Shown here: positions 12,405-29,484 of the stretch, in pieces | Layout of the letters: every line of letters starts with the position of its first letter | Position numbering within the stretch: position 1 is the first letter of the stretch | Assembly (NCBI GenBank): GCA_014728085.1 | Contig: WJMF01000109.1 | Coordinates: 1-58,284, forward strand | Direction of reading: 5' to 3' | DNA length: 58,284 bases | Source: Candidatus Zhuqueibacterota bacterium | GTDB lineage: Bacteria; Zhuqueibacterota; Zhuqueibacteria; Residuimicrobiales; Oceaniaggregativiventaceae | Program-made: the position numbers and the translations under genes | Notes under the pieces: generated by a model | Database searches by the model: none | What the model was told of the DNA's origin: nothing | Seen by the model: the letters and a program-made list of their open reading frames with translations, nothing else

Positions 12405-13133
12405 TTGCACCAAGCGTTGCCTGGTCAAAACATTCCTCTTGCGGGTAGTATAGAACTTACCGAACGATGCAATTTGTCCTGCCATTATTGCTACATCAAT
12501 AAACCGGCCGCAGATAAAAATTGCCTGGATCGGGAGCTGAAAACAGCTGAATTCAAACAGCTGATTTCCGGGGCTGCCGCAATGGGGTGTCTCTGGCTAT
12601 TAATAACCGGCGAAGAGCCTTTGCTTCGCCCTGATTTCGCCGAGCTTTACAAAACCGACAAACGCAAGGGGATGCTGGTTACCATTTTCACCAATGCCAC
12701 CCTCCTGACCGCCAAACTCTGCCGGCTGTTTGCCGACATGCCACCATTTGGCAAAGTCACCCTTTGTGCTCGCAGAGAAAAAACCTATGAACGCATTACC
12801 AGCATAAAAGGTGCTCACCCAAAATACCTGAAAGGCATTGATTTGCTGCTGCAGTACAATCTTCCCCTGAGAGTAAAAACGCCTGTTTTCGCAGACAACC
12901 TGGTTGAACTCGATCTCTTGAAAGCATTTACCAAAGAACGCTCGTTGGAATTTCGCTTTGATCCTGTTCTCAACTTACGCACAGACGGCGGCAAAGCGCC
13001 CGGCCAATACCGCCTCTCTCCCGAAAAGGTGGTTGAGCTGGACTGCAACCGCATGGCTTCCCAGGGATGCCTCACCTGGTACCGATACTTTGCAAAAAAT
13101 GATCCAGCAATTCATCAAAAGCGTTTTCGATAG
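12405..13133 (+). pseudogene. Degraded radical SAM gene, SPASM-type maturase remnant
   Basis: The frame opens at a TTG without a visible ribosome-binding site and encodes the radical SAM cluster motif L-T-E-R-C-N-L-S-C-H-Y-C-Y near residue 22, then a (beta/alpha) barrel resembling SPASM-class peptide maturases up to YRLSPEKVVELD near residue 213. Two defects are visible. The usual GGEP motif reads G-E-E-P (ITGEEPLLRPDF), and the C-terminal cysteine-rich SPASM domain is missing. The frame instead runs 62 bp into the convergent lipoprotein gene, whose coding starts at about 13072 on the other strand. No precursor peptide is apparent nearby. A truncated, probably inactive gene is the simplest reading; a divergent functional enzyme is less likely. 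Confidence 0.7.
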
Positions 13134-13662
13134 CCAAACTGGTGGCATGGGCAGTGCCGTCGCCGCCGGGTTTTTGAATTTTTTGCCGTTTCTCAATCAT
13201 TCCCTGCCAGATATGCTGCTGCTCTGCCTGACTTGCAAAACGAGCCCGGAGATGAAAGACAACGCTTCGATTTTGATCGTCGACAACCTCTTTCAGATCC
13301 ATCAAATCGATTTCAAGAACCCAAAAATCATCATCAAGCGGCGGACGATCGGTCGTCATGCTGAACACCCCTGTGCTGCGAAAATACTCCAATGCTTTGC
13401 GGCGCAATAACTTCACCGGCGGTTCAACCCATCGGCGGTAATGATCAAAACGAATCTCATAAGGAGATAGCTGATAGATCATTTTTTCCTGTTGATAAAT
13501 CGGTGCGCTCTGAACAGGCATTATATAAAGTGGCTGTCCGGTGGATTTTTCGCTCCCATCCTTGCCAGGGGGGACTTGCAGGCGGTAATAACGTATTTGA
13601 GGCATATGACCGCATGCCCAAAATAGCGCCACAATTGAAATTATTATTGCCTTCTTGATCAT
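13072..13662 (-). CDS. ABC-transporter auxiliary lipoprotein, PqiC/DUF330 family
   Basis: The 196-residue product has a lipoprotein signal (MIKKAIIISIVALFWAC) behind GAGGAGA and the features of the ABC_trans_aux (DUF330, PqiC) family: an early Y-Y-R-L segment, then I-M-P-V-Q, and YQLSPYEIRFDHYRRWVEPPVKLL, in which the family's tyrosine- and tryptophan-rich motif is recognisable. Proteins of this family sit on the inner face of the outer membrane and partner with MCE-domain lipid transporters. It is the last gene of the MCE operon, 9 bp after the MCE-protein stop. Its 3' end overlaps the degraded radical SAM frame. Family call is secure. Confidence 0.85.
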   Translation of the reverse strand: MIKKAIIISIVALFWACGHMPQIRYYRLQVPPGKDGSEKSTGQPLYIMPVQSAPIYQQEKMIYQLSPYEIRFDHYRRWVEPPVKLLRRKALEYFRSTGVFSMTTDRPPLDDDFWVLEIDLMDLKEVVDDQNRSVVFHLRARFASQAEQQHIWQGMIEKRQKIQKPGGDGTAHATSLAIENAFDELLDHFLQSIGTR

Positions 13663-13671
13663 ATTCTCCTC

Positions 13672-14571
13672 TTATTCGGCCAAGTCCCTCTCTTCGGGAT
13701 AGTCTTTACGTATTAATCTCCACGGATGTTCCTTGATATTCCGGCTGAACTCGCTCAAATTTTGACTGGTTCTCAGAAGATTTTCCATCGCCGTATACAT
13801 GGATTCCCGATTTTCAACGATCGTTCCCCGGCTCAATTCCATAACATCTGCGGCACTATGCATTGCTTTTCGGGTCTCCTGTAAAAGCGAATCAAGCTGT
13901 TGAAAATTATGTTTTACCAGAACATTATTATCACGAATAAAATGACTCATAACCTCAACCGTTTCACTCACCTGAATAGAGAGTTCGGTGGTGTGATCAA
14001 TAAGATCGTCAATCTTTTCAGCATTTTGAGATGTCATTTTACTCATCGTCTGCAACATTGCGGACAAATGTGCCCGATTCTCGGCATTAAACAGCTGATT
14101 TAGATTCCCGAGCAACATCTGTAATTCATCCGTTGCTTGTCCAACAGGGTCGAGAAGCTGGGAAAAACCCCTGACATCTTTTCCGGGAATGAGTGAGCCA
14201 GGGGGCAACAACGGAGCATCGTTAGTGCCGGGTGATATTTCAACATAGTATGACCCCATTAATCCGATTGTGGTTAATCGAGCCTCGCTATTGCTTCGCA
14301 CCGGAATGTCTTCCTTCAACTCCAGGACCAGCTCGATATTGGCTCGTTCCGGTGTCGGCAAACGGATTTCCTTAACCTGGCCAACATGGAGCCCGGCAAA
14401 GCGGACCACAGATCCCTCTTCCACACCACCGGCAAAACGGAATTGACAGCGGTAGATGACGCTATCCGACCAGTACTGATTACCGATAATAATGGCCAAA
14501 AAGGCGATAAAAACCAGGATAGAGATCAAAATAAAGAGTCCGGCTTTGATTTCACTTGATTTATAATTCAT
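13672..14571 (-). CDS. mlaD: MCE/MlaD-family substrate-binding protein
   Basis: I prefer the ATG at 14571 (AGGAAG seven bases upstream) over 14589. The 299-residue product has one N-terminal membrane helix (KAGLFILISILVFIAFLAIIIG) and then an MCE domain: FAGGVEEGSVVRFAGLHVGQVKEI, LTTIGLMGSYYVEISPG. The remaining about 150 residues are helical with coiled-coil heptads, which in this family extend as a periplasmic helical bundle. MlaD-type hexamers carry phospholipids between the two membranes together with MlaE and MlaF, both encoded immediately upstream. The symbol reflects family membership rather than a proven orthologue. Confidence 0.9.
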   Translation of the reverse strand: MNYKSSEIKAGLFILISILVFIAFLAIIIGNQYWSDSVIYRCQFRFAGGVEEGSVVRFAGLHVGQVKEIRLPTPERANIELVLELKEDIPVRSNSEARLTTIGLMGSYYVEISPGTNDAPLLPPGSLIPGKDVRGFSQLLDPVGQATDELQMLLGNLNQLFNAENRAHLSAMLQTMSKMTSQNAEKIDDLIDHTTELSIQVSETVEVMSHFIRDNNVLVKHNFQQLDSLLQETRKAMHSAADVMELSRGTIVENRESMYTAMENLLRTSQNLSEFSRNIKEHPWRLIRKDYPEERDLAE

Positions 14572-14581
14572 GGTCTTCCTG

Positions 14582-15388
14582 TTATTCATTAATCAGCGTG
14601 TTAAAATATTGTTCGGTATCGATAATATCCTGATCCGGTTTTCTGTCGATAAATTGCCGAACGATTGGATTGTCACTCTTTTTCATTTCTTCCTTGTTTC
14701 CCAGAAAAACGATCCTGCCGCCGTCCATAAGAGCGATGCGGTCGGCGATGGTAAAAACCGATTCAAGTTCATGCGTGACGACAACGATACACATTTTAAA
14801 GGCGCTTTTGAGCTTAAGGATCAGCTGATCGATTCCCACTGCAACAACAGGGTCAAGGCCGGCCGACGGCTCATCGCAAAAGAGGATCTCGGGATCCATT
14901 GCAAGGGCGCGGGCCAGAGCGGCTCTTTTCTTCATACCTCCCGAGAGCTGTGACGGATAATGGTGTTCAAATTCAGCCAATCCGACAAGATCGAGCTTAA
15001 TGCGGCCCATGATGCGAATGGTAGAAAGCTCCAGAGGGGTATGCTGTTTGAGAGGGAGGGCAACATTATCGCCCACAGTCATCGAATTGAACAGGGCACC
15101 GTTTTGAAAAAGCATTCCCACTTTGAGCAGAGTCTGCCGTTTTTTCTCGTCATCTGCATGGATAATATCCACCCCTTTTATGTGAATATCACCGCTCTCC
15201 GGCTTTTGTAAACCGATCAAATGGCGCAAAAGGGTGCTTTTACCGCATCCTGAACGACCCAGAATAACAAACGTTTCTTCAGGATAAATATTCAGGTTTA
15301 TGCCTCTGAGTACCTGCCGGTCTCCAAACCGGGTATAAACATCTTTGATTTCAATAACTGGTTTTTTGCTGTTCACAAGGCTTTTCAC
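14582..15388 (-). CDS. mlaF: MCE/Mla-type ABC transporter ATPase
   Basis: The 268-residue product has the full ABC ATPase set: Walker A G-R-S-G-C-G-K-S-T near residue 44, signature L-S-G-G-M-K-K-R-A-A-L-A near 150, Walker B I-L-F-C-D-E-P-S-A-G-L-D, and the switch histidine in V-V-T-H-E-L. The sequence SGGMKKR is typical of the Mla/Ttg2A subgroup. The start is a GTG. The gene lies between the permease gene and the MCE-protein gene, the standard mlaE-mlaF-mlaD order, and powers phospholipid movement across the envelope. Confidence 0.93.
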   Translation of the reverse strand: MKSLVNSKKPVIEIKDVYTRFGDRQVLRGINLNIYPEETFVILGRSGCGKSTLLRHLIGLQKPESGDIHIKGVDIIHADDEKKRQTLLKVGMLFQNGALFNSMTVGDNVALPLKQHTPLELSTIRIMGRIKLDLVGLAEFEHHYPSQLSGGMKKRAALARALAMDPEILFCDEPSAGLDPVVAVGIDQLILKLKSAFKMCIVVVTHELESVFTIADRIALMDGGRIVFLGNKEEMKKSDNPIVRQFIDRKPDQDIIDTEQYFNTLINE

Positions 15389-15419
15389 GTTGATTGGTTA
15401 TTATTTTCCGTCTGTTGCG

Positions 15420-16223
15420 TTAAAAAGTCGAATAAAAGAGGGCGGTAAAAAGAACGTCCGCCAGAATAATCAAAAAAATAGCGCTTACGACGCTGATTGT
15501 GGTGGACTTGCCCACACCTTCCGCTCCACCCCGCACCTGAAATCCCTGATAAATGCCGATTTGAGAAACGATAACGGCAAAAACGCCGGATTTAATCAGG
15601 CCGGTAAGAAAGTCTTTGGCCAGAATAGCCTCGGCGCTCTGACGAAAATAGGCTGAAAACGGTATCTCGAGTTGAGTAACTGCAAAAAGCACGCCGCCAC
15701 CAATACCGACGAGATCAGCGAGTATTGTTAAACAGGGCAGCACAACCACCATCGCCAGCGTTCTTGGAACAGCCAGAAACCCGATTGGGTCGATGCTCAT
15801 GGTTTTAAGCGCATCAATCTCCTCTCCGACTTTCATGGTTCCCAATTCCGCGGCAATGGCCGATCCACAGCGACCGCTGACCAGTATAGCGGTAATCAGA
15901 GGGCCGAGCTCGCGGGTGATGGATACACCGACGAGATTGGCAACATAAATAGAAGCCCCGAATTGATGCAGCTGATAGGCCGCCTGCATAGCTAAAATAA
16001 GTCCGATAAAAAAAGAAATAACAATAACGATGGGCAACGAATCGACACCGATTCGTACCATCTGTACAAAGACATCATGCCATTCAATTTTTTTCCGGCT
16101 CAGTGGGGCGGTAAGGAGCCATTTAAATGTTTGCCAGCTGAGCAGAAAAAATTGCCGTACGGATTTGAAAAAACCAAACAGCTGGCGGCCCCAGCCACCC
16201 AGTACCTCATAGACCTTGTTCAT
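15420..16223 (-). CDS. mlaE: MlaE-family ABC transporter permease
   Basis: The 267-residue product is an MlaE/YrbE permease. After an amphipathic N-terminal interface helix it has five to six membrane segments and the family signatures SFFIGLILAMQAAYQLHQFG and ITRELGPLITAILVSGRCGSAIAAELGTMKVGEEIDAL. This is the membrane part of the MCE lipid transporter. Its ATG overlaps the stop of the upstream STAS gene by four bases (ATGA), so the two are translationally coupled, which ties the STAS protein to the transporter. Confidence 0.93.
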   Translation of the reverse strand: MNKVYEVLGGWGRQLFGFFKSVRQFFLLSWQTFKWLLTAPLSRKKIEWHDVFVQMVRIGVDSLPIVIVISFFIGLILAMQAAYQLHQFGASIYVANLVGVSITRELGPLITAILVSGRCGSAIAAELGTMKVGEEIDALKTMSIDPIGFLAVPRTLAMVVVLPCLTILADLVGIGGGVLFAVTQLEIPFSAYFRQSAEAILAKDFLTGLIKSGVFAVIVSQIGIYQGFQVRGGAEGVGKSTTISVVSAIFLIILADVLFTALFYSTF

Positions 16224-16564
16224 GCTGCCATGGTCTCCAAAGCGGTTTCAGAGTCATAATATATCTCAAAGACCTTGTCCAGCCGGGTCAATTCAAAAAC
16301 CTCTTTTACTTCGGCCCGCAATCCGGCGATGGCAAAGCGGCCCTGGTACTGATTTGCCCGTTTCAGGCCTTCGATTAAAGTGGCCACTCCGGAACTGTCC
16401 ATATAACGGACATTTTCCAGATCGATAAGAATAGCCAGAGGCTTGGCTTTGATCGATTCCAGAATCGTTTTGCGCAATTGCGGTGATGAATAGAGATCGA
16501 TCTCTCCCCCTATTTTGATCACCATAACACGATTCCGATTTTTTATATCAATATCCAGATTCAA
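16220..16564 (-). CDS. STAS-domain protein, anti-sigma-factor-antagonist type or MlaB-like
   Basis: The 114-residue product is a single STAS domain. Its phosphoacceptor motif is intact: Y-M-D-S-S-G-V-A-T-L with the serine at position 58, as in SpoIIAA. It is encoded 3 bp after a SpoIIAB/RsbW-like kinase and overlaps mlaE by 4 bp. Two roles are possible. It could be MlaB, the STAS subunit that binds the ATPase of Mla transporters, or a partner-switching antagonist phosphorylated by the neighbouring kinase. The kept serine and the adjacent kinase favour phosphoregulation, and both roles could apply to one protein. The domain call is secure, the partner is inferred. Confidence 0.88.
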   Translation of the reverse strand: MNLDIDIKNRNRVMVIKIGGEIDLYSSPQLRKTILESIKAKPLAILIDLENVRYMDSSGVATLIEGLKRANQYQGRFAIAGLRAEVKEVFELTRLDKVFEIYYDSETALETMAA

Positions 16565-16567
16565 GAT

Positions 16568-16993
16568 TTACTCTCCCTTGGTCATATATTTAATCATTGT
16601 CAATTCATTGCCGCTGTCGACAAGGTTTTTATAGCGCACCCGGTCCATGACACTTTTGATCAAGTGAACTCCCAACCCCCCGGGCCGGATTTCATCAAGG
16701 GGCCTGGGTTTGATTTTTTTGGGATCCACCTGTATACCGTGATCGACAATTTTGATCCTTAACAGATTTTTCTCAATGGTACATTTTATGTATATTTCCT
16801 GATCAGGTTCATTTAAATAGGCGTGGCGTATAACATTAGAGCAAGCCTCATCAACAGCCAGAACAATTTTGCTGGACTCTAACCGGTTAAACCCGGCAAT
16901 CTGACAAACCTGATCAATCGTGGCCCGAATCAACCTCAGGTATTCGGGATTGCTGTTGCTGTACAACTCTATTTTTTTTAAAAGTCTGATCAT
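16568..16993 (-). CDS. SpoIIAB/RsbW-like serine kinase (GHKL ATPase fold)
   Basis: The 141-residue product is a small histidine-kinase-like ATPase of the anti-sigma family. The N-box V-D-E-A-C-S-N-V-I-R-H-A-Y lies near residue 47, followed by I-V-D-H-G-I-Q-V-D-P (G1 region) and R-P-G-G-L-G-V-H-L-I-K (G2 lid) near residue 110. RsbW-type kinases phosphorylate a serine on a STAS partner and sequester a sigma factor or another target. A STAS gene starts 3 bp downstream. No PP2C phosphatase or sigma factor of that class is adjacent. It is the first gene of the Mla operon. Confidence 0.88.
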   Translation of the reverse strand: MIRLLKKIELYSNSNPEYLRLIRATIDQVCQIAGFNRLESSKIVLAVDEACSNVIRHAYLNEPDQEIYIKCTIEKNLLRIKIVDHGIQVDPKKIKPRPLDEIRPGGLGVHLIKSVMDRVRYKNLVDSGNELTMIKYMTKGE

Positions 16994-17135: not shown

Positions 17136-19829
17136 TCAATGCGCATCGAGCCAGTTATCAGCATAATTATATTCTACTTTAATGGGTACATCCAGTTGAA
17201 TGGCGTCTTCCATTTCCGTTGGTATCCAATCTTTAACGACGTCCAATTCGGCTTTTGGTACTTTGAAAATCAATTCATCGTGTACCTGCAGCAACATTTT
17301 TGTTTTTAATCTTTCTTTTTTCAAACGTTCATGAATATGAATCATGGCAATCTTGATTAAATCAGCAGCGCTGCCCTGGATAGGCATATTGATCGCCGTT
17401 CTTTCGGCAAACTCTCGTATACGCCGGTTCTCGCTTAAAATTTCGGGCAAATATCGTCGTCGTTTTAACAGTGTGGTCACATATCCCTGTCTGCGCGCCT
17501 CTTCGGTTATTCTCATCATGTATTCATGAACCCGGGGATAACTGGCAAAATAGGCCTTGATAAAACTATCCGCTTCTTCCGGTGTGATACAAAGTCGCCG
17601 GGACAATCCATACGCCCCCATGCCGTACATGATTCCAAAATTTACTTCTTTGGCTTTACGCCGTTGATCAGCGGTTACGTTGGTTTCATCAACAGCGAAA
17701 ATCGATGCCGCTGTTCTTGTATGGATATCCTGGTCTTCCCTGAAAGCGGAAGAGAGGTTATCATCCTGTGAAAGATGAGCCATGATGCGCAATTCTATCT
17801 GCGAATAATCGGCATCAAATAACAGATGCCCGCGATCGCGGGGAATAAACGCTCTTCGGATTTGACGACCGATTTCCGTACGAATGGGAATATTTTGCAA
17901 ATTCGGATCACTGGAAGAGAGCCTTCCCGTTGCGGTTACGGTTTGATTGAAAGAGGTGTGCAAACGGCCGGTTTCCGGATTGACCAGTTTTGGCAAAGCG
18001 TCGATATAAGTACTTTTAAGCTTGATCAACTGACGAAAATCCAGCAATAATTTGGGCAACTCGTGCTTTGGTGCCAATTCTTCCAGAACGTTGACGTCGG
18101 TGGAGTAACCGGTTTTGGTGCGCCGAATAACCGGTAATTGTAATTTTTCGAACAGGATAACCGACAACTGCTTGGGGGAATTGATGTTAAATTCTTCACC
18201 GGCCAGGGCAAAAATTTTCTTTTCGAGCTGTAATAATTTTTCGCTGACCTTTCCCGACATCTCTTTGAGAACAGGTATATCCAGTGCGATACCGCTCTTT
18301 TCCATTTCACACAGCGTGTATACCAACGGTATTTCCACGTCTTCAAAGAGCTGACGTAAATGCATCTCTTTGAGCTTTTTCTCAAGATGAATCTTTAACC
18401 TCCAGGTCATGTCCGCGTCTTCGCAGGCATAAGCTGTGACTTTTGCTAACGGTACCTTCTCCATCGTTATTTGCTTTTTACCGGTTCCGAGCAAATCGGT
18501 CACGGGAATCTTTTTAATATTAAAACAGGATAAACTCAGCGCATCGAGATTATGCTGACGTAGTGACGGGTTGATCAGATAACTGGCGATCATACTGTCG
18601 AAAACGAGATTGTTTACATACACGTCCTCTCTGTCGAGGACGAGCATATCGTATTTGGCGTTGTGAGCACACTTTTCGGTTTCTTCGCTCTCGAAGACAG
18701 GCTTAATCAGGGAAATGACTTTATCCTTTGCGAGCGGGCGCGTGCTACTCTCCTCGGGTGCTTTAACCGGAACATAATAGGCAGTACCCTCCTGAAAACA
18801 GAAGGACAGACCGACCAATTCAGCTTCAAGCGGATTGACACTCGTGGTTTCCGTATCAAAGGCGAAACGCTTTGTCTCTCTGAGGGCCTTGATCAGCGTA
18901 TTCAGTTCCGCTTCTGTTGCCACGAGTTTATAATCTGTTTCAATTTTTTTTCTTTCCGAATACCGGTCAATGAAGGACTGTATTTCCAGCTCCTGAAAAA
19001 ATTCCACTGCGGTATCGGGCTCCGGTTCACCGATTAAAAGTCGTTCGATATCGGTTCCGAGGTCGAGATCACAACGCAAGGTGACCAGCTGCCGGGACAA
19101 TTTGGCCTGATCGATCGATGCTTCAATGCTGGTGCGCACGCGTTGATTACGGATTTTTTCCCTATTCTCAAGAATTGCATCGAGCGAACCGAACTCCTTT
19201 AACAAGGCCTTTGCACCTTTGGGCCCTACCCCTTTAACACCCGGAATATTATCCGATGAATCTCCTGTTAATGCCAGATAATCGATTATTTCATCGGCCC
19301 GAACACCGAGTTTCTCCTTCACGGCATCTGCATCGAGCCATTCTGATTCCTCCCCCGAGCGTTTAGGATTATAGACGCAGATACCCTCGGAGACCAGTTG
19401 CAACAGATCTTTATCTCCGCTTACGATAACGGTTTGCACTCCCGATTTTTGCGCTTTTTTGGCCAGGGTGCCGATAATATCATCCGCTTCATAGCCGGGT
19501 TTGGTGATCATCGGAATTTTAAGCACGGACAACAGCTGTCGGATTCTCGGTAGCTGTTCAACCATATCTTCCGGCATTGCAGCGCGCTGCGCTTTATAGT
19601 CCTCATACATTTCATGTCGAAAGGTCGGCTCGGGCGTGTCAAAAATCACGGCAAAATAATCCGGTTTTTCAGAGTCAATCATATTGAGTACTGTTTTGGC
19701 AAAACCAAAAACCGCACTGACATTTTCGCCTCTGGAATTGATCAGAGGGTTGCGGATAAAGGCATAGTAGGAGCGATAGGCCAGCGCTGAGCCGTCTATG
19801 AGAAAAAATGTTTTTTCTTTGTCGTTCAT
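17136..19829 (-). CDS. polA: DNA polymerase I
   Basis: I chose the ATG at 19829 because GGAAGGA lies six bases upstream and MNDKEKTFFLIDGSALAYRS is the normal N-terminus; longer frames upstream lack support. The 897-residue product has all three domains: a 5'-3' exonuclease (about 1-290, with G-Y-E-A-D-D-I-I-G and D-S-S-D-N-I-P-G-V), a 3'-5' proofreading domain with intact D-T-E-T, N-A-K-Y-D and Y-A-C-E-D-A-D-M-T-W motifs, and a polymerase domain with D-Y-S-Q-I-E-L-R (A), R-R-K-A-K-E-V-N-F-G-I-M-Y-G (B) and V-H-D-E-L-I-F (C). It fills gaps and removes primers in replication and repair. It appears to be transcribed alone. Confidence 0.98.
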   Translation of the reverse strand: MNDKEKTFFLIDGSALAYRSYYAFIRNPLINSRGENVSAVFGFAKTVLNMIDSEKPDYFAVIFDTPEPTFRHEMYEDYKAQRAAMPEDMVEQLPRIRQLLSVLKIPMITKPGYEADDIIGTLAKKAQKSGVQTVIVSGDKDLLQLVSEGICVYNPKRSGEESEWLDADAVKEKLGVRADEIIDYLALTGDSSDNIPGVKGVGPKGAKALLKEFGSLDAILENREKIRNQRVRTSIEASIDQAKLSRQLVTLRCDLDLGTDIERLLIGEPEPDTAVEFFQELEIQSFIDRYSERKKIETDYKLVATEAELNTLIKALRETKRFAFDTETTSVNPLEAELVGLSFCFQEGTAYYVPVKAPEESSTRPLAKDKVISLIKPVFESEETEKCAHNAKYDMLVLDREDVYVNNLVFDSMIASYLINPSLRQHNLDALSLSCFNIKKIPVTDLLGTGKKQITMEKVPLAKVTAYACEDADMTWRLKIHLEKKLKEMHLRQLFEDVEIPLVYTLCEMEKSGIALDIPVLKEMSGKVSEKLLQLEKKIFALAGEEFNINSPKQLSVILFEKLQLPVIRRTKTGYSTDVNVLEELAPKHELPKLLLDFRQLIKLKSTYIDALPKLVNPETGRLHTSFNQTVTATGRLSSSDPNLQNIPIRTEIGRQIRRAFIPRDRGHLLFDADYSQIELRIMAHLSQDDNLSSAFREDQDIHTRTAASIFAVDETNVTADQRRKAKEVNFGIMYGMGAYGLSRRLCITPEEADSFIKAYFASYPRVHEYMMRITEEARRQGYVTTLLKRRRYLPEILSENRRIREFAERTAINMPIQGSAADLIKIAMIHIHERLKKERLKTKMLLQVHDELIFKVPKAELDVVKDWIPTEMEDAIQLDVPIKVEYNYADNWLDAH

Positions 19830-20236
19830 TTTTCCTTCCATTCTCGGTTTGATAAGGCAAATTTCAGGCCAAATGGATGTAGTTTTCAATGTAATCAAAA
19901 GAACATAATCATGCAATGCTAATTTGTGCCGGAATAATCATAAATAGCGCTATAATTCATTAAAATTTAACCTATTATAAAAGAACGATCCGTTTACGCA
20001 GATTTCGCCAAAGGATGTATACTAGAATACAGGTTGAGTTGGCCGTTTATGCATCAACGATAATGAAATTCGTGTTCTTTGCTGAGACAGATTGTCCCGC
20101 ATGGCGTGACAATTTTTATTTCTTTACATTTAACAGGAATATTAGTATCATAAAGGTCTGTTATTCAATTTGCATCATGTATTATTATACCAACATTGAT
20201 GATCGACCCTTTATCTGAATGAGACAGGAGAAGAAA
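19830..20236. other. Divergent promoter region between polA and the DUF3467 gene
   Basis: These 407 bp lie between two divergent starts and are AT-rich, as expected for back-to-back promoters. I could not assign -35/-10 boxes with confidence on either strand. A 67-codon open frame at 20015-20218 on the plus strand has no ribosome-binding site and no recognisable product. I see no RNA gene. Confidence 0.5.
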
Positions 20237-21348: not shown

Positions 21349-21423
21349 GCGGCTGATTTCTGCATCTGTATAGGTATGATTTTTGCCTCTTTTGCTCGAT
21401 TGAATAGTGAACCCTTTGCCAAC

Positions 21424-21438
21424 AGGAGGTCCGAGTTG
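21424..21438 (+). promoter_or_regulatory. Ribosome-binding site fixing a TTG start
   Basis: AGGAGG at 21424-21429 stands six bases before TTG at 21436. The next codons encode a typical signal peptide (LSLRKQLFYHIWVIVFGLLL as genome-frame residues, the first read as Met). A longer reading from 21376 has no ribosome-binding site and would place 20 polar residues before the signal peptide. Confidence 0.8.
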
Positions 21439-24400
21439 AGTTTGCGTAAACAACTGTTTTACCATATATGGGTTATCGTTTTTGGTCTTTTGCTTTCATC
21501 TATAGTGGAGGCGAAACCGTGGCGAATCATGGCCGTTGGAAATTCCATCACCAAGGGTGTCGGAAGCACGGACGATTATGGATTTCGAAAAAAACTGTAC
21601 AGCGGTCTAACCAACGCCGGAATCCAGTTCCAAATGGTCGGACCGGACGGAGAACCGTTTAATGCCTATTTCAAGCCCGGTGCCGATATTGAAGATTTTC
21701 TGCCGGGGGGAGAAAAACCTATTTCTCAGGCTGTGATGAATAATTATCAACCCAATATGATCATATTGCATCTGGGAACCAACAATATTCAAAACAGCGA
21801 CGAATCGTTAAAGGATGCAAAAAGAGAACTTTTGCAACTGCTGCGGGAATTGACAAAATACACCGATGGTACCCTGGGAAATTATCTCGAGCGCATCATT
21901 CTTTGTAAAATACCTCCCAAGAAAATCGCCGATAATGCCAGTCCATATGTTGACCTGTTCAATGCCTATATAGACGAATTGTTTTTCGAGCGGCCTGCCG
22001 GCGTTGCGAGAAACAAAATTACGGTTTGCAACACACCAATAAATGTGGCTGATTTGGTCGATGGAATACACCCGGATGATTATGGCTATGCCAAAATCGC
22101 AGGTGATTTTGTAGATATTATCCGCGGATTATCAGCCGCTTCGGACAATTATGCGCCGGGACGTTTGGCCTGGGGACCAAGCCGCGCTATCGATGGGGAA
22201 ACCGCCTTGCTGCAATGGCGGGCCACCGGAGATGACGGTAATTTCGGCAAAGCGAATTTATATGAACTTCGCTATGCAACATATGAACTCACTGCGGAAA
22301 ATTTTAATACCGGTGTGCTGGTTTCCCTGGGTAAGACGAAAAACGTCTTTGAAGATGAACAGGCTCAAATTGATAAATTAACACCCGGAATCACATATTT
22401 TTTCGGTCTCCGCGCCTATGATGAATGGAACAATGCCGGGAAACTCAACTTTTTTTCCCTGGAGATGCCGGCCGCCACCAAAAATGAATTTTGTGATGAT
22501 TTTATCGACACAGAACTGACGGACTGGTCCTATAATCCGGATTATACCGTGGTGGATGAATGTCTTTCCAATACCAACAGTGCTACCGGCTGGAACGCTC
22601 TTGCCGTTTATCAAAACGGCAGTTATACGGCGAACTCCAAATCCATCACCGTTACCTTAACATGGTCGGATATCGCTGATTTTAACGGCATGGAAGGCAC
22701 CGGTATCGCCATGATGCTGGATGAACCCTCTTCTGAAACTACAGAAGGATATCTGGTAAAAGTATCGATCGATGAAGGAAAGGCCACCGGGATCTCGCTG
22801 TTCAAACTGACCATCAATTATAGTGTGGCATCGTTACAATATCTGGATTCGGAAGGGGTACAGGCTGATCCGAACGCTCCCGCAATACCACAGGGATCCA
22901 ATCTGAAAGTAAAATATTCTCTGAGCTATACCGATGGCTATACCTTTAGCGTCTATTTAAATGACATCCCCCTCGGTATTGTAACCGATCCCGAAATGGA
23001 ATTGGGGCAGGCCGATCAGCTCTATTCCGGTCTCATGCTCTACGGTGGCAGTGAAAATAACATCGATAAGTACTGTATAGAAGTTCCTCCCCTGGATCCG
23101 CATCATTTGGTCAAATATGGCGGCGATGGTCAAAGCGGTCCGGTGACCAAATCCCCGCCGGAATTTATCAAAGTCAAATCTGAGGATATCAACAATCTCG
23201 GCGTACCCAATGTTGTGGTGGAATTTTCAACTGTACAGGGAAACGGTTTTCTCAGCACGGATTCAATTGCCGACCAGTTCACCGGTGATATCTGGCTGGA
23301 AGCAGAAGATGGATTTTTGGATGTCTACAGCAAAAATGCCGATGGCAATGCTTCCGGAAGCCAGTATATTTCCGTCCCCACCGGAATTGGCGAGCTTTAC
23401 AACAAAGGGGAAGCTCTCTATAATGTCTATGTCCCCAAAAACGGCATCTATAACGTCTGGTTGCGCCTGATAACGCCGAGCGACAAACAGAATTCGCTCT
23501 ATCTCGACATTGACGGCAACACAGTAGAGTGGTCTCCCATCAACGTGACGACCTCCTGGGCCTGGTTTCAGAAATACGCCTTTCGCATGGATAAAGGGCT
23601 TGTCCAGTTTAAAATCAAAAACCGGGAACCGGGCACCAAGGTCGATAAAATCTTGTTGACAACAAACGCTTACGGAAGTATTCCCGGAACCGGAGGATCG
23701 CCGGTCCGTTTTTCCAATGTTACCGACGGACTGGGTATAGCCTATACTCGCGTCACCTTTCCGGAACACGCAGATTCACTCAAAGTCCGCGCTTATGCCC
23801 CTACGGTACCCAATGATAACGAACAGGTCTTTACGGTATATGCTGAGGCTCTTGAACCGGCCAGCATGGTCTACGCCTCGGCCCGAGATACAATCGTCAA
23901 GGCAGGTGACCTGGTAAATCTTCAGGTTCAATTACAGGATCAATATGGCAACAACTGCCAGAGCTATCCGGTACTTTATACCGTTGTCAGCGGTGACGGC
24001 CGTTTTGCCGCGGATACGATTTCTACCGAGGTCTCATCCGATGCAAATGGAACCGCTTCGGCCAAATTGAGAATGGGCTTTATTTCAGATGTAACCACCG
24101 TCCGGGCAACCCTCCCCGGGGAACCGGACATCCCCGCCCTCGAATTTACCCTTCGCAAGGGCGAGGGACCCACGGAAATCATCAAACTGCCTGAAGGAGA
24201 TCTGCAAGCTGCACCGGTAAACAGTGAACTCGCTGCTCCGCTTCGGGTCAGAGTAGTCAATGCGCAGGGGGAACCATTTGCGAATTTTCCCGTCCCGTTT
24301 GAAATCATCAGCGGTGATGGTTTGATCAACGGTCAATACAAATCACTCGTCGATACCACGGATCAAAATGGTATCGCCGCTGTAGGCTTAACCGTGGGCA

Positions 24401-27400
24401 AAGCAGCCGGAGATAGCATTAATGTCGTTAAAATTGATGTGGCGTTGTTAAATGCTCCTCTTTATTTTTACGCTCATGGTCTTGCCGGCCAGGCCAGAGG
24501 ATTGCTTAAAATTCATGGTGATAACCAACAACGCTCGGCAGGAAGAACCTTTATAGATTCCCTGGTGGTTAAAGTGGTAGATGAATATGGGAACGGCAAG
24601 CCAGGCTACAGCGTCCGTTTTAGCGATCATTTTACCGACGGTCATTTTGAAGGGCAACAGGAAGTGACGCGGGAGAGCGATGCCAACGGTTTTGTATCGG
24701 TCTATTATACCGCCGGCCGCATAGCCGGCAGCCGCAATATTACGGTTGAAGGTATACCGCAGCTACCAAACGGACAAGTCACCTTTAGCCTTACTGTACT
24801 ACCTCCTGCCGCCAGCCAAATTGTCATCGTTTCAGGCAATAAAAAAAGATACGAGGTCAATTCGATTGTTACCGAACCGCTCAAAGTAAGAGTTCTCGAT
24901 CCTTTTGGAGATTTCGTTGCCAATGTTAATGTGTGGTTCAAGGTATTACAGGGAAATGGCAAGCTTACTGGTCTGGACTCGATGCAAATCCAGAGTGACA
25001 GCAATGGTGAGGCAATGGTCACCACCTTTCGGCTCGGCACAGAAGCCGGCTTCCTGAACAATGAAATTCTGGTGTATCTACAGGATAAAACTGTAGACCC
25101 CGTTTTATTTCAGCTTACCGGAGATCCCGGTGCTGCTTACGTTATGGAAGTATTGGGCGATACCACCTTTTATGCGCAGCCCGGACAGGAGGGCATTCAA
25201 CTCGGGGTCAAGGTCAGAGATGCTTTTAACAATCCCCGCCCGGGTCATAAAGTGACGTTTACAACCGAAGGATCGGGCAGTTTTATCGATGGGAAGAGCT
25301 ACATAGATACATTTACGGACAATGACGGTAATGCTATTGTCGACTATACGATGGGCAAAAATCCTCTGTTTGCAGAAAAAATATCTGCAATTTCTTTCCG
25401 CCCCAAAATTTCGGGAGCACATCTGTTGGGCAGTCCGGCTCGCTTTCACGGTCAATATTTATCCGGTGATGTTTTCAGGCTAATCAAAATTTCCGGAGAC
25501 TTGACACAGAGCGCCGATGTTATGAGCACTCTGGGCCAACCATTTGTGGTGGAAGCGCAGGATCTGTATGAATTGCCTGTTCCCAATCTGGAATTGGTTT
25601 TCAAGGTCATCTCCGGCAGCGGCAGTATCGGTTTGAACGAAGAGGTGGTTGTCAAGACAGACAATAATGGCAGAGCAAGCGTTATGCTCACCGTTGGCAA
25701 AAAAGCAGGAGATCGTAATCAAATCGTTCGTGTTTCGGTTAAAAACAATGCAGATGTCGCGTCGGTTCAGTTCAGCGCTTCTGCCAAAGCCGGAGATGCC
25801 GACCTGCTGGTGGTAAACGGAGACACCGCCTGGACCGGCTCTGTAGATATGAACCTGTCCCCCACCGTTATGGTAACAGATCTTTATGAGAACCCCAAAC
25901 CGGGATATCCGGTATTTTTCGAAATCATTCAGGGAGAGGGTAAAGTCAACGGTCAGGATACACTGACTCTGTTTACCAATAACAACGGCATCGCCCGGGT
26001 AAGCTGGACACTGGGTAACCAACCCGATTCCAACCGGATAAGAGTAACAGCTGAAATGGCCAACGGCGAGCATTTGCGTCATTCGCCCGTGATATTCAGT
26101 GCATATACAAAATCTGCGAATCCGGTCTATATGATACTGCAATCGGCACAAAACGACACGGGCGTCATCGGACAACCGCTGCATCAACCGATCCGTGTTC
26201 TGATCACCGATTATTATAATAATCCGGTTCCCAATCATCGCGTTGATATCAATGTTATCTCCTTTTCACGAACAGCGCATATTGAAAACATAGCGCCATC
26301 TGATACCGCTTATATTGTGACCGATGCAAACGGCATAGCCACGGCTCAATTGATTCTGGGAAATGCAGCGGAAAAAGTTTGGGTGCATATTCGTTCCTCC
26401 TTCAACGGTCAGCCCTTGATCAACAAAAATGAAAGTGCCTCTGTTATCACGGTCACGGTTGAATCCCTGCCAACTTTTGCCCATAAAGTGACCCTTCTCG
26501 GTGATTCTCTTGTCACGGCAGCGGCAGGATCAACAGTGGAAGTAAAGGTTCAGATCGAGGACCGAAACGGTCAGCCTCTGACGTTGCCTCATCCTGTCTA
26601 TTTCAGCATTCAAGACCAGGAAAGTACACTGGGACAGGATGGCAATAACTTTCAGATACAGAATAGCAACGATGGAAGGGCAAACATTCTCTGGAATCTG
26701 GGTACAACTGCCGGTGAAAAAACAAACCAAATGCGCATTCAGGTTAAAAACAATGAAAAGGATGTCGTTAACTCACCTTTGACCGTATGGGCTTCTTTAT
26801 TATCCGGAAGGCCGAACAATATCAAATCAAACCTCACAGCCACCGGACCGGTTCTGGCCAACGGCACTTCTCAATCCGAGGTCACCGTTGAATTAAAAGA
26901 TCAATATGGCAACCCTGTTGCCGGGAAAATCGTTTATCTGCAGATCAGCGGTGAAGGCAACACCGTTCATCAACCTTCAGAAGTGACAAATGCAGAGGGG
27001 AGGGCGATCGGTTACATCAAATCCACCAAAGCGGGACCTAAAACCGTTCACGCACGGATCAGCGACAGCCCTTCATTCGATATTTCAACACAAGTCGATT
27101 TTTATTCCGATGATCCCAGAAATTTAGTCGTGGTGGCCGGCGATAAACAAAGCGGCAACCGCGGTACAATATTACCCGATCCATTTGTCATTAAAGTCGA
27201 GGATAGCAATCACAATCCCGTACGCGATATCGCCCTTCAGTTTACAATAAGCCAGGGCCAGGGTCAGTTCAAGGAGAATGATGCGACATCCTTCATGACA
27301 ACCACGGATTCAGCCGGACTCGGCCGGGCCTTTTTGGTATTGGGTACGGAAAATAACAGCGCAACTTACGTACGGGTTACCAGCCCTCATCCAAATCTGC

Positions 27401-29484
27401 AGGGACTCGTTCAAACCTTTCTGGCCTATGCCGTCGACGGGGAGCCGGCAGAAGTGCAATTGATTTCTGAATCACCGCTCGAAGGCACGGTTGGGGATAC
27501 TTTGTCAAAACCGCTTCAAATCAGGGTTGTGGATCACAACGGGCATCCGCTCTATGATGTGCAGGTCAACTTTGAGCCATTATCGGCGGATGCGGACATT
27601 ATTCAGCCACAACCGGTAAAAAGTGACCGAAATGGTATGGCCATGGCCACATATCGACTGGGTAGCAAGGCAGGTTCACAAAAAGTTCTGGTCAGGCTGG
27701 CAACAACGGACTCTTTGGAGATAACCGTCACAGGAATGCCCGCAGCGCCCGCGGATATCGTTGCCTCCAGTGGTACGCCGCAGTATTGTACCGTAAAACA
27801 GCAACTACAACTCCCCTTTAGAGCGATGATTACCGATGCATTTGGCAATCCGATTCCCAATATCAAAATCAATTTTCAAATGATCGATGGAAACGGAGGC
27901 CGGTTTGTCGGTCCGGATACCGTCCTGACCAATTCAGGTGGTGTAGCTGCTGTTTACTTTGTAGCGGGCGAGAAAGCCGGCGACTATATTATTCGGGCAA
28001 AATCTCCTTCCCTGATCAGCCGGTCAGCCCTCTTCCACTGTACCGCTCGGGCAGATATTGCTTCCACCATCCAGATCATAGACGGGAACAACCAGGAAAT
28101 GACGGCAGGCAGACAACTGCTGGATCCGCTAAAGGTAGGCATCAGAGATCAGTATGACAATCCGGTACCGGATTTTGTGGTCAATTTCTACCCATATCAG
28201 GGATCGGTATTACAATCAGCAGATACCACCAACGATCAAGGCATAGCCCACTGCACCTGGCTGTTGGGTAACTCGCCGGGTAATAATGTGCTGCATGCCG
28301 GCAAAGCCGGCCAACCGGATTTCCGGGTTACATTTACAGCAACAGGCGTTACCAATGAATTTCCCTACTTTGTCAATATACCTGAAGATACCCTGTCGAT
28401 TTGGTATGGACAGGAATTTATTCAAATGGTAAAAATAGCAGACGGAGATAATGATCCTGTGGTGGCAACGGTGGAAAATAAACCCTTTTCGGCAAAATTT
28501 TCAGTCACCTCGGATCCTGCACAATATATGTTTCAGTGGACGCCGCAAGTGAATGATCGCTATGGTGTGCGCAAGCTGAAATTCCTCGTTCAGGATAATC
28601 AGGGTGGAATGGGTAAGGACTCTCTCTTTATCAGGGTTATTGGAAATTATCCGCCGACGCTTATCTATGCCAATGATTTACCGGTTACGATCACCAAACC
28701 GGATACGGTTCAATTCAGAGTTTTGGCAGCCGACCCGGAAGGGGATAATATTGTTTACACCTGGTACGTCGATGGCAAGGTGGTATTACAGGGCAAAAAC
28801 AGCTACATGTTCATTACCAGTCATTACTCCAGTGAATATCATAAAATCAGCTGTACAATATCTGACGGCGAACAACAGATTGAAAAAACCTGGTACCCCC
28901 TCTTAACCCATGTCGAGCTCGGTCATTTTTCAGCAACCCTGAAACCTTTTAAAGGGACGACACTGGAATGGCAGACACAATATGAAGCGGATAACATGGG
29001 CTTCCAGATTCTTCGCAGCTCCAGAGAAAACGGAGATTATCGCATCCTGACGCCGGACCTGATCGCATCGTCGCCACAGGGATTATATAGCTATCAGGAC
29101 AGCACAACAGAAAGGACTCGAGACTATTATTATAAATTAAAAGCATTCGGATCGGATGGCGCGACGCAACTCTATGGTCCGGTCAAAGCAAAAGCCTCAC
29201 TGCCGGAAACGTTCAAAGTCTATCAAAATTTCCCAAATCCCTTTAACCCGGACACCAAGATCCGGTTTCAACTGCCTCGCTCCACCCATACCAGGATTAT
29301 TATTTACAATGTTCAGGGACAACAAGTCAGAACACTTGTTGATGATCAGCTGTCGCCGGGTTATCATGAAATACACTGGGATGCTCTGAATAAAAATGAA
29401 AAACGGGTTGCATCAGGCGTATACTATTACCGCATCGAAGCTGGTCAATTTAGCGCTCTCAAAAAAATGGTTCTGTTAAAATAA
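21436..29484 (+). CDS. Giant secreted SGNH-hydrolase / Ig-repeat protein with type IX sorting domain
   Basis: The TTG start gives 2682 residues and a signal peptide ending IVEAKP. Domains in order: an SGNH/GDSL hydrolase (about 28-232; G-N-S at 35, G-T-N-N at 114, D-G-I-H at 209-212, so catalytic Ser, Asn, Asp and His are present); a fibronectin-III-like domain (about 238-335); a laminin-G/concanavalin-like beta domain (about 350-555); an Ig-like (invasin Big_1 type) unit split by a CBM6/35-like insert (about 618-745, IWLEAEDGFL); 14 further Ig-like units to about 2304, each with a D-x-x-G-N-P-x-P-like strand and an S-D-x-N-G-x-A-type strand; cadherin-like and fibronectin-like units; and a sorting domain from about 2595 (YQNFPNPFNPDTKIRF). 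It is probably a cell-surface esterase-adhesin. The substrate is unknown. Confidence 0.9.
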   Translation: MSLRKQLFYHIWVIVFGLLLSSIVEAKPWRIMAVGNSITKGVGSTDDYGFRKKLYSGLTNAGIQFQMVGPDGEPFNAYFKPGADIEDFLPGGEKPISQAVMNNYQPNMIILHLGTNNIQNSDESLKDAKRELLQLLRELTKYTDGTLGNYLERIILCKIPPKKIADNASPYVDLFNAYIDELFFERPAGVARNKITVCNTPINVADLVDGIHPDDYGYAKIAGDFVDIIRGLSAASDNYAPGRLAWGPSRAIDGETALLQWRATGDDGNFGKANLYELRYATYELTAENFNTGVLVSLGKTKNVFEDEQAQIDKLTPGITYFFGLRAYDEWNNAGKLNFFSLEMPAATKNEFCDDFIDTELTDWSYNPDYTVVDECLSNTNSATGWNALAVYQNGSYTANSKSITVTLTWSDIADFNGMEGTGIAMMLDEPSSETTEGYLVKVSIDEGKATGISLFKLTINYSVASLQYLDSEGVQADPNAPAIPQGSNLKVKYSLSYTDGYTFSVYLNDIPLGIVTDPEMELGQADQLYSGLMLYGGSENNIDKYCIEVPPLDPHHLVKYGGDGQSGPVTKSPPEFIKVKSEDINNLGVPNVVVEFSTVQGNGFLSTDSIADQFTGDIWLEAEDGFLDVYSKNADGNASGSQYISVPTGIGELYNKGEALYNVYVPKNGIYNVWLRLITPSDKQNSLYLDIDGNTVEWSPINVTTSWAWFQKYAFRMDKGLVQFKIKNREPGTKVDKILLTTNAYGSIPGTGGSPVRFSNVTDGLGIAYTRVTFPEHADSLKVRAYAPTVPNDNEQVFTVYAEALEPASMVYASARDTIVKAGDLVNLQVQLQDQYGNNCQSYPVLYTVVSGDGRFAADTISTEVSSDANGTASAKLRMGFISDVTTVRATLPGEPDIPALEFTLRKGEGPTEIIKLPEGDLQAAPVNSELAAPLRVRVVNAQGEPFANFPVPFEIISGDGLINGQYKSLVDTTDQNGIAAVGLTVGKAAGDSINVVKIDVALLNAPLYFYAHGLAGQARGLLKIHGDNQQRSAGRTFIDSLVVKVVDEYGNGKPGYSVRFSDHFTDGHFEGQQEVTRESDANGFVSVYYTAGRIAGSRNITVEGIPQLPNGQVTFSLTVLPPAASQIVIVSGNKKRYEVNSIVTEPLKVRVLDPFGDFVANVNVWFKVLQGNGKLTGLDSMQIQSDSNGEAMVTTFRLGTEAGFLNNEILVYLQDKTVDPVLFQLTGDPGAAYVMEVLGDTTFYAQPGQEGIQLGVKVRDAFNNPRPGHKVTFTTEGSGSFIDGKSYIDTFTDNDGNAIVDYTMGKNPLFAEKISAISFRPKISGAHLLGSPARFHGQYLSGDVFRLIKISGDLTQSADVMSTLGQPFVVEAQDLYELPVPNLELVFKVISGSGSIGLNEEVVVKTDNNGRASVMLTVGKKAGDRNQIVRVSVKNNADVASVQFSASAKAGDADLLVVNGDTAWTGSVDMNLSPTVMVTDLYENPKPGYPVFFEIIQGEGKVNGQDTLTLFTNNNGIARVSWTLGNQPDSNRIRVTAEMANGEHLRHSPVIFSAYTKSANPVYMILQSAQNDTGVIGQPLHQPIRVLITDYYNNPVPNHRVDINVISFSRTAHIENIAPSDTAYIVTDANGIATAQLILGNAAEKVWVHIRSSFNGQPLINKNESASVITVTVESLPTFAHKVTLLGDSLVTAAAGSTVEVKVQIEDRNGQPLTLPHPVYFSIQDQESTLGQDGNNFQIQNSNDGRANILWNLGTTAGEKTNQMRIQVKNNEKDVVNSPLTVWASLLSGRPNNIKSNLTATGPVLANGTSQSEVTVELKDQYGNPVAGKIVYLQISGEGNTVHQPSEVTNAEGRAIGYIKSTKAGPKTVHARISDSPSFDISTQVDFYSDDPRNLVVVAGDKQSGNRGTILPDPFVIKVEDSNHNPVRDIALQFTISQGQGQFKENDATSFMTTTDSAGLGRAFLVLGTENNSATYVRVTSPHPNLQGLVQTFLAYAVDGEPAEVQLISESPLEGTVGDTLSKPLQIRVVDHNGHPLYDVQVNFEPLSADADIIQPQPVKSDRNGMAMATYRLGSKAGSQKVLVRLATTDSLEITVTGMPAAPADIVASSGTPQYCTVKQQLQLPFRAMITDAFGNPIPNIKINFQMIDGNGGRFVGPDTVLTNSGGVAAVYFVAGEKAGDYIIRAKSPSLISRSALFHCTARADIASTIQIIDGNNQEMTAGRQLLDPLKVGIRDQYDNPVPDFVVNFYPYQGSVLQSADTTNDQGIAHCTWLLGNSPGNNVLHAGKAGQPDFRVTFTATGVTNEFPYFVNIPEDTLSIWYGQEFIQMVKIADGDNDPVVATVENKPFSAKFSVTSDPAQYMFQWTPQVNDRYGVRKLKFLVQDNQGGMGKDSLFIRVIGNYPPTLIYANDLPVTITKPDTVQFRVLAADPEGDNIVYTWYVDGKVVLQGKNSYMFITSHYSSEYHKISCTISDGEQQIEKTWYPLLTHVELGHFSATLKPFKGTTLEWQTQYEADNMGFQILRSSRENGDYRILTPDLIASSPQGLYSYQDSTTERTRDYYYKLKAFGSDGATQLYGPVKAKASLPETFKVYQNFPNPFNPDTKIRFQLPRSTHTRIIIYNVQGQQVRTLVDDQLSPGYHEIHWDALNKNEKRVASGVYYYRIEAGQFSALKKMVLLK

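Follow-up and report, generated by a model that had tools for sequence, protein, structure and literature searches.

An RsbW-like kinase gene and a STAS gene at the head of a putative Mla lipid-transport operon in a Zhuqueibacterota bacterium

The stretch of DNA considered in this study (the window) comprises 58,284 nucleotides, contig WJMF01000109.1 of assembly GCA_014728085.1, from a Candidatus Zhuqueibacterota bacterium. On its minus strand lie six open reading frames (ORFs), in the order RsbW-like kinase, STAS protein, mlaE, mlaF, mlaD and PqiC-like lipoprotein. A first-pass annotation had given this order with its coordinates, and both are borne out: the ORFs are found at those places and strand, and their Pfam families agree. 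It had gone on to suggest that a dedicated kinase, by phosphorylating a MlaB-like STAS subunit, could switch phospholipid transport on and off. That interpretation is partly supported by what follows.

The operon and its genes

The genes of the operon, the motifs within them and the gene upstream are these:

16568..16993, minus: RsbW/SpoIIAB-like serine kinase, 141 amino acids, HATPase_c_2 (Pfam PF13581, 5e-30)
16835..16849, minus: kinase N-box, E49 to N53 (EACSN); E49 and N53 without exception, in the host phylum (58/58 loci) and in a wider alignment (81/81 sequences)
16736..16744, minus: kinase G1 motif, D84-x-G86; 58/58 in the phylum, with D84 in 80/81 of the wider alignment (one gap)
16670..16687, minus: kinase lid/G2 segment, R103-PGGLG; PGG-x-G invariant in the phylum set
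16220..16564, minus: STAS protein, 114 amino acids, TTG start (PF01740, 2e-23)
16394-16396, minus: codon of STAS Ser57, equivalent to the phosphosite in an alignment with SpoIIAA
15420..16223, minus: mlaE permease, 267 amino acids (PF02405, 5e-79; TIGR00056 above cut-off)
14582..15388, minus: mlaF ATPase, 268 amino acids, GTG start (ABC_tran, PF00005, 1e-31)
14585..14650, minus: MlaF residues 247-268, a C-terminal extension that bears the tail motif (Tyr260, Leu264, Ile265) and a predicted helix, 258-266
13672..14589, minus: mlaD/MCE substrate-binding subunit, 305 amino acids (PF02470, 2e-16)
13072..13662, minus: PqiC-like auxiliary lipoprotein, 196 amino acids (PF03886, ABC_trans_aux, 3.7e-6, barely above cut-off)
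17136-19916, minus: polA, which reads as DNA polymerase I, upstream of the kinase gene on the same strand

The genes are closely packed. As first noticed, 3 base pairs (bp) separate the kinase and STAS genes, and the STAS gene overlaps mlaE by 4 bp (ATGA, 16220-16223); there follow a gap of 31 bp between mlaE and mlaF, an overlap of 8 bp between mlaF and mlaD, and a gap of 9 bp before the lipoprotein gene. A promoter scan 5' of the kinase gene gave a single weak match, not above chance. The adjoining genes that match PF02405, PF00005 and PF02470, all above cut-off, make up the gene set of an MCE/Mla lipid ABC transporter. The MlaF model PRK11831 is the second-best NCBIfam match of the mlaF product, under its cut-off, and solved MlaF chains are matched as well. 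Judged by these families, the operon is of the MCE/Mla type, and its predicted function is the transport of phospholipid between membranes.

The gene set in other genomes

MlaE was used to search 82 genomes of the host phylum, and 108 mlaE loci, those of the window's own genome included, were examined. The arrangement kinase-STAS-mlaE is present at 58 of them, the window among these, and neither kinase nor STAS gene at the remaining 50; no locus among the 108 has a STAS gene beside mlaE without a kinase. One of the 50 belongs to the window's own genome (locus L002, contig C231); it is a second mlaE there, part of an mlaE-mlaF-mlaD operon that has no STAS or kinase gene, encodes a MlaF without the C-terminal tail, and has a phosphate-acyltransferase-like ORF upstream. 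A separate mlaB would have spoken against the first-pass annotation; no STAS gene other than that of the window was seen beside mlaE in this genome. Some MlaE proteins of the phylum are longer (about 370 amino acids), and I suspect an N-terminal STAS fusion in them.

To look beyond the phylum, the kinase alignment was run against 84,980 species and the best 80 of 559 relatives kept, a scan led by the kinase and so biased towards loci that have one. Both STAS and mlaE genes are present in the fetched stretch for 75 of these 80 best matches. Linked loci among the 80 account for 21/21 from Nitrospirota, 8/8 from Acidobacteriota, 6/7 from Planctomycetota and 7/8 from Thermodesulfobacteriota (the eighth is cut by the edge of the fetched stretch), and occur also in Calditrichota, Auribacterota, Nitrospinota, Pseudomonadota, Omnitrophota and Tectimicrobiota. 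Since the kinase at 19 of the 75 is identical to one in the phylum set, the 133 loci (58 plus 75) represent about 114 distinct ones. The synteny that the first-pass annotation had looked for in related genomes is therefore real, and the recurrence of the gene order, at 58 loci of the phylum and in about ten other phyla, is far beyond chance.

In phyla other than the host's, the module is a minority trait. Among 61 Nitrospirota genomes, 12 have a kinase match (E <= 1e-15), 10 of which adjoin STAS and mlaE genes; 35 of 60 Acidobacteriota genomes matched, and the only mlaE-linked locus among the 30 fetched was that of the starting genome; 59 Desulfobacterota genomes gave three linked loci, one of them divergent. 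In Desulfotignum, a phosphatase-kinase pair (in one case the kinase alone) is transcribed away from mlaF-mlaE-mlaD-STAS, so the association of kinase and transporter survives in another gene order. Six Planctomycetota loci (L170, L176, L180, L185, L200 and L208) have kinase-STAS-mlaE, mostly followed by mlaD, without a phosphatase gene; no mlaF was detected near them, so that this gene either lies elsewhere or escaped detection.

The first-pass annotation did not bring in a phosphatase. A PP2C of the SpoIIE/RsbU type lies upstream of the kinase at no fewer than 85 of the 133 loci (at least 85 by a strict distance rule, the 19 shared loci being counted twice), with the Pfam architecture GAF plus SpoIIE in 4/4 examples scanned. 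With this gene directly 5' of the kinase gene, the partner-switching set is complete in most relatives. The window's genome has 15 SpoIIE-type domains elsewhere. One of them, L236, a GAF-PP2C truncated by the end of contig C238, finds its best matches among mlaE-linked PP2Cs and is no more than a candidate for the operon's cognate phosphatase; it cannot be called a unique one, since L225 scores about as well. Several SpoIIE-type phosphatases of the same genome are grouped around another STAS-kinase pair on contig C174 (L005, L012, L224-L228 and L230), a separate partner-switching centre not linked to mla genes.

The kinase, the STAS protein and MlaF

Among solved sequences the kinase is closest to RsbW (6m36, phmmer E 5.6e-16) and SpoIIAB. 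Its N-box and lid, noticed at the outset, are present (E49/N53 and R103-PGGLG), and across the 58 phylum loci E49, N53, D84, G86 and PGG-x-G are invariant, as is the D-S-S-G of the STAS protein. With N-box, G1 and lid intact, this HATPase_c_2 protein retains the residues that catalysis should require. A tree was built from 147 kinases, and one branch (SH-aLRT 82) sets off all 95 that are linked to mlaE, together with three unlinked ones (L148, L153 and L186); the alignment has few columns and many forks are unresolved. As far as such a tree can tell, the mlaE-linked kinases, the window's included, are essentially one clade.

One might suppose that what the kinase domain gives the STAS protein is structural or chaperone support, and that phosphorylation has been lost in the window's lineage, where (as in some other groups) no PP2C gene is adjacent. 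The invariance of the N-box, G1 and lid residues and the presence of those 15 SpoIIE-type domains, L236 among them, make this very improbable.

The STAS protein resembles SpoIIAA and RsbV over its full length, its closest solved sequences being a Thermotoga anti-sigma antagonist, SpoIIAA and RsbV. It scores 22 bits against the curated MlaB model NF033618, whose cut-off is 90, and for that reason I class it as MlaB-like in place only and not as MlaB. Its AlphaFold model (mean pLDDT 95.6) includes a strand at 100-102 and a helix at 105-113; with Foldseek the model best matches the RsbV of an RsbV/RsbW complex, and E. coli MlaB (6xgy) comes only at rank 48.

The first-pass annotation rightly reported that D-S-S-G is kept, and took Ser58 to be the phosphorylated residue. 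The alignment with SpoIIAA gives Ser57 instead, the first serine of the motif and the residue with which helix 2 opens in the AlphaFold model. The phosphorylated residues are Ser58 in SpoIIAA and Ser56 in RsbV, each the first serine after the conserved aspartate. Ser58 of the window's protein is further ruled out by the alanine found there in L144, L147 and L150, which have intact kinases. In these three kinase-linked STAS proteins S-S-A-G replaces D-S-S-G; the phosphosite serine is kept and the neighbouring aspartate and serine are lost. Ser57 is invariant in kinase-linked STAS proteins (151/151). MlaB has Thr52 at the position of the SpoIIAA phosphoserine (PMC5016091, PMC7367683).

Other positions of helix 2 distinguish the STAS proteins that accompany the transporter. 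Those linked to it have A61 in 150/151 and E65 in 150/151, whereas unlinked ones (n = 41) mostly have G61 and either S or G at 65. When 148 Desulfobacterota genomes were searched with the STAS protein, 3/3 STAS proteins with this signature lay in mla loci with a kinase (two in line, one divergent); 27 that scored lower lacked the signature, and the stretches fetched around them contained no mlaE.

The end of MlaF bears on whether the STAS protein binds it. In E. coli, Tyr261, Leu265 and Leu266 of the C-terminal extension of MlaF enter a groove beside MlaB (PMC7367683). For the window's MlaF the ending is TEQYFNTLINE, and a helix predicted with moderate confidence takes in Tyr260, Leu264 and Ile265. 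Expressed as a regular expression, a pattern picked after the tails had been inspected, this tail motif is present in kinase-STAS loci (42/49 and 62/67 in two sets of tails), in kinase-less MlaB loci (4/4) and in truncated loci with the kinase (2/2), and in none where no STAS was detected (0/42 and 0/28, or 0/70). Tail length alone separates STAS-linked from STAS-less loci less cleanly outside the phylum. One Latescibacterota genome has its phosphatase, kinase and STAS genes some 11 kb distant from mlaE-F-D, on what, by its equal length, seems to be a single contig, and the MlaF nevertheless ends in EEYERSLLGN. Since the motif tracks the STAS protein, even at such a distance, docking on MlaF as MlaB does is probable, although the case is weakened by a pattern chosen post hoc.

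The same observations bear on whether the kinase and STAS protein are simply co-transcribed with the transporter, an ordinary anti-sigma/anti-anti-sigma switch that governs expression of the operon and leaves transport unregulated. That the STAS protein is closest to SpoIIAA and RsbV rather than MlaB, by sequence and by fold, suits this idea, as does the frequency in other genomes of kinase-PP2C-STAS clusters without mla genes. It is distinctly improbable nonetheless, considering that a MlaF tail like the one that docks on MlaB tracks STAS presence and persists in Latescibacterota, that the helix-2 signature of linked STAS proteins is absent from unlinked ones, and that there is a want of suitable sigma factors: in the genome, which is 97.9% complete, no SigB/F/G sigma factor scores above the TIGR02980 cut-off, and the two full-length matches are RpoD-like. 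Nor does the conserved gene set contain a sigma gene. A kinase/STAS pair apart from mla and beside a sigma factor, which would have spoken against the first-pass annotation, is not what is seen; the trio stays together across phyla. An anti-sigma role as the principal function is weakened by the same lack of a SigB/F/G factor above cut-off.

Information might also flow in reverse, with the STAS protein reporting transporter occupancy or the state of the envelope to the kinase, which when free would act elsewhere as an anti-sigma factor or other regulator; the operon would then be a sensor and not a valve. The kinase belongs to a family of anti-sigma factors, and a STAS protein that binds both MlaF and the kinase could signal either way. 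I consider this unlikely, given the sigma results just described (which bear on the SigB/F/G classes) and the PP2C beside the kinase, which suggests that input arrives at the phosphatase.

A proposed switch and its relation to known systems

The reading I prefer, and think reasonably likely, is that the kinase and a PP2C set the phosphorylation state of a MlaF-bound STAS protein and so gate lipid transport. In E. coli, MlaB binds MlaF by a helical face with Thr52 near its centre, T52E weakens the complex, and MlaF does not stay on the transporter without MlaB (PMC7367683); in SpoIIAA and RsbV the interfaces with the kinase surround the phosphosite (PMC11418112). If both hold here, kinase and MlaF would compete for one face of the STAS protein. 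The STAS protein would sit on MlaF like MlaB and be required for transport. The kinase would phosphorylate Ser57, or grip the STAS protein by the same helical face, and either would remove it from MlaF, phosphorylation itself freeing it, so that transport would fall. A PP2C answering some signal would then take off the phosphate, restore transport and reset the switch. As the window's genome has no phosphatase gene adjacent, a displaced or shared PP2C would have to serve. That the kinase is dedicated to the MlaB-like subunit is strongly supported by the synteny, the single kinase clade, the STAS signature and the MlaF tail motif.

Several observations weigh against the switch. Conservation of Ser57 is no proof of phosphorylation, and I discard it as such, because the residue is also kept in unlinked STAS proteins (41/41) and, as Ser or Thr, in kinase-less gammaproteobacterial MlaB (4/4); the position may serve another role. 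In E. coli, T52A abolishes ATPase activity and the complex is not disassembled (PMC5016091). The modelled STAS protein shares with SpoIIAA an additional strand and helix not present in MlaB, and the tail motif was defined with the tails already in view. Finally, no PP2C gene adjoins the kinase gene in the window, where polA occupies that place, nor in the window's family or the sampled Acidobacteriota and Planctomycetota.

The first-pass annotation had thought such a control new to Mla. That is not so as regards the idea, for phosphoregulation of MlaB was proposed in 2016 and 2020 (PMC5016091, PMC7367683), the latter paper describing how active MlaB is regulated as still open; it does stand in that neither paper names a kinase. 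No paper linking an RsbW-type kinase to Mla was found in the open-access literature. Partner switching and Mla are both known; the searchable literature appears to hold no earlier report of the two together, of how widely they occur together, or of the candidate kinase and phosphatase. A candidate kinase, a candidate phosphatase and a residue can now be named where they are encoded with the transporter, and since the enzymes are encoded together with it in these organisms, the idea becomes directly testable. If it is true, partner switching reaches beyond gene expression into the handling of membrane lipids, and lipid traffic between the membranes of many little-studied phyla would be switched by phosphorylation, whereas the E. 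coli proposal was never tied to an enzyme. It would also suggest where MlaB came from. I would put at about even the chances that there exists a widespread, old class of lipid transporter, found in about ten phyla, in which an Rsb-type kinase and phosphatase gate the ATPase directly through its STAS subunit. This would amount to a complete post-translational signalling circuit on an ABC transporter, and E. coli MlaB may be what is left of such a circuit after loss of the kinase.

Two further ORFs of the window may be mentioned. A short radical-SAM-like ORF (12405-13133, plus strand, 242 amino acids, TTG start, CxxxCxxC in its N-terminal part) converges on the lipoprotein gene, overlapping its end by 62 bp, and may be truncated. 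A very large one (21376-29484, plus strand, 2702 amino acids) reads as an SGNH-like hydrolase at its N-terminus, with many Ig-like repeats and, at the C-terminus, a sorting-like domain.

The operon shares with E. coli MlaFEDB homologues of MlaE, MlaF and MlaD, a STAS protein encoded alongside, a MlaF tail with Tyr-x3-Leu-Leu-like spacing, and Ser or Thr at the position of Thr52. Unlike the E. coli operon, which has no kinase or phosphatase gene, it places the STAS gene upstream of mlaE and behind a kinase, and its STAS protein is RsbV-like, of 114 amino acids, whereas MlaB of E. coli, a minimal STAS, has about 97 and lacks the last (fifth) strand and helix. With RsbU-RsbV-RsbW and SpoIIE-SpoIIAA-SpoIIAB of B. 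subtilis it has in common the PP2C, STAS and HATPase_c_2 families, the position of the phosphosite and, in relatives, often the adjacency of the genes. The B. subtilis systems differ in having a sigma factor as their output; in the present case a lipid ABC transporter is what is conserved alongside, no SigB/F/G factor is found above cut-off, and the window itself is without an adjacent phosphatase. Vibrio fischeri SypE-SypA and Bordetella BtrUVW likewise employ STAS phosphorylation outside classic sigma release, but with biofilm formation and type III secretion, respectively, as outputs, and the review that covers them makes no mention of Mla or lipid transport (PMC8256260).

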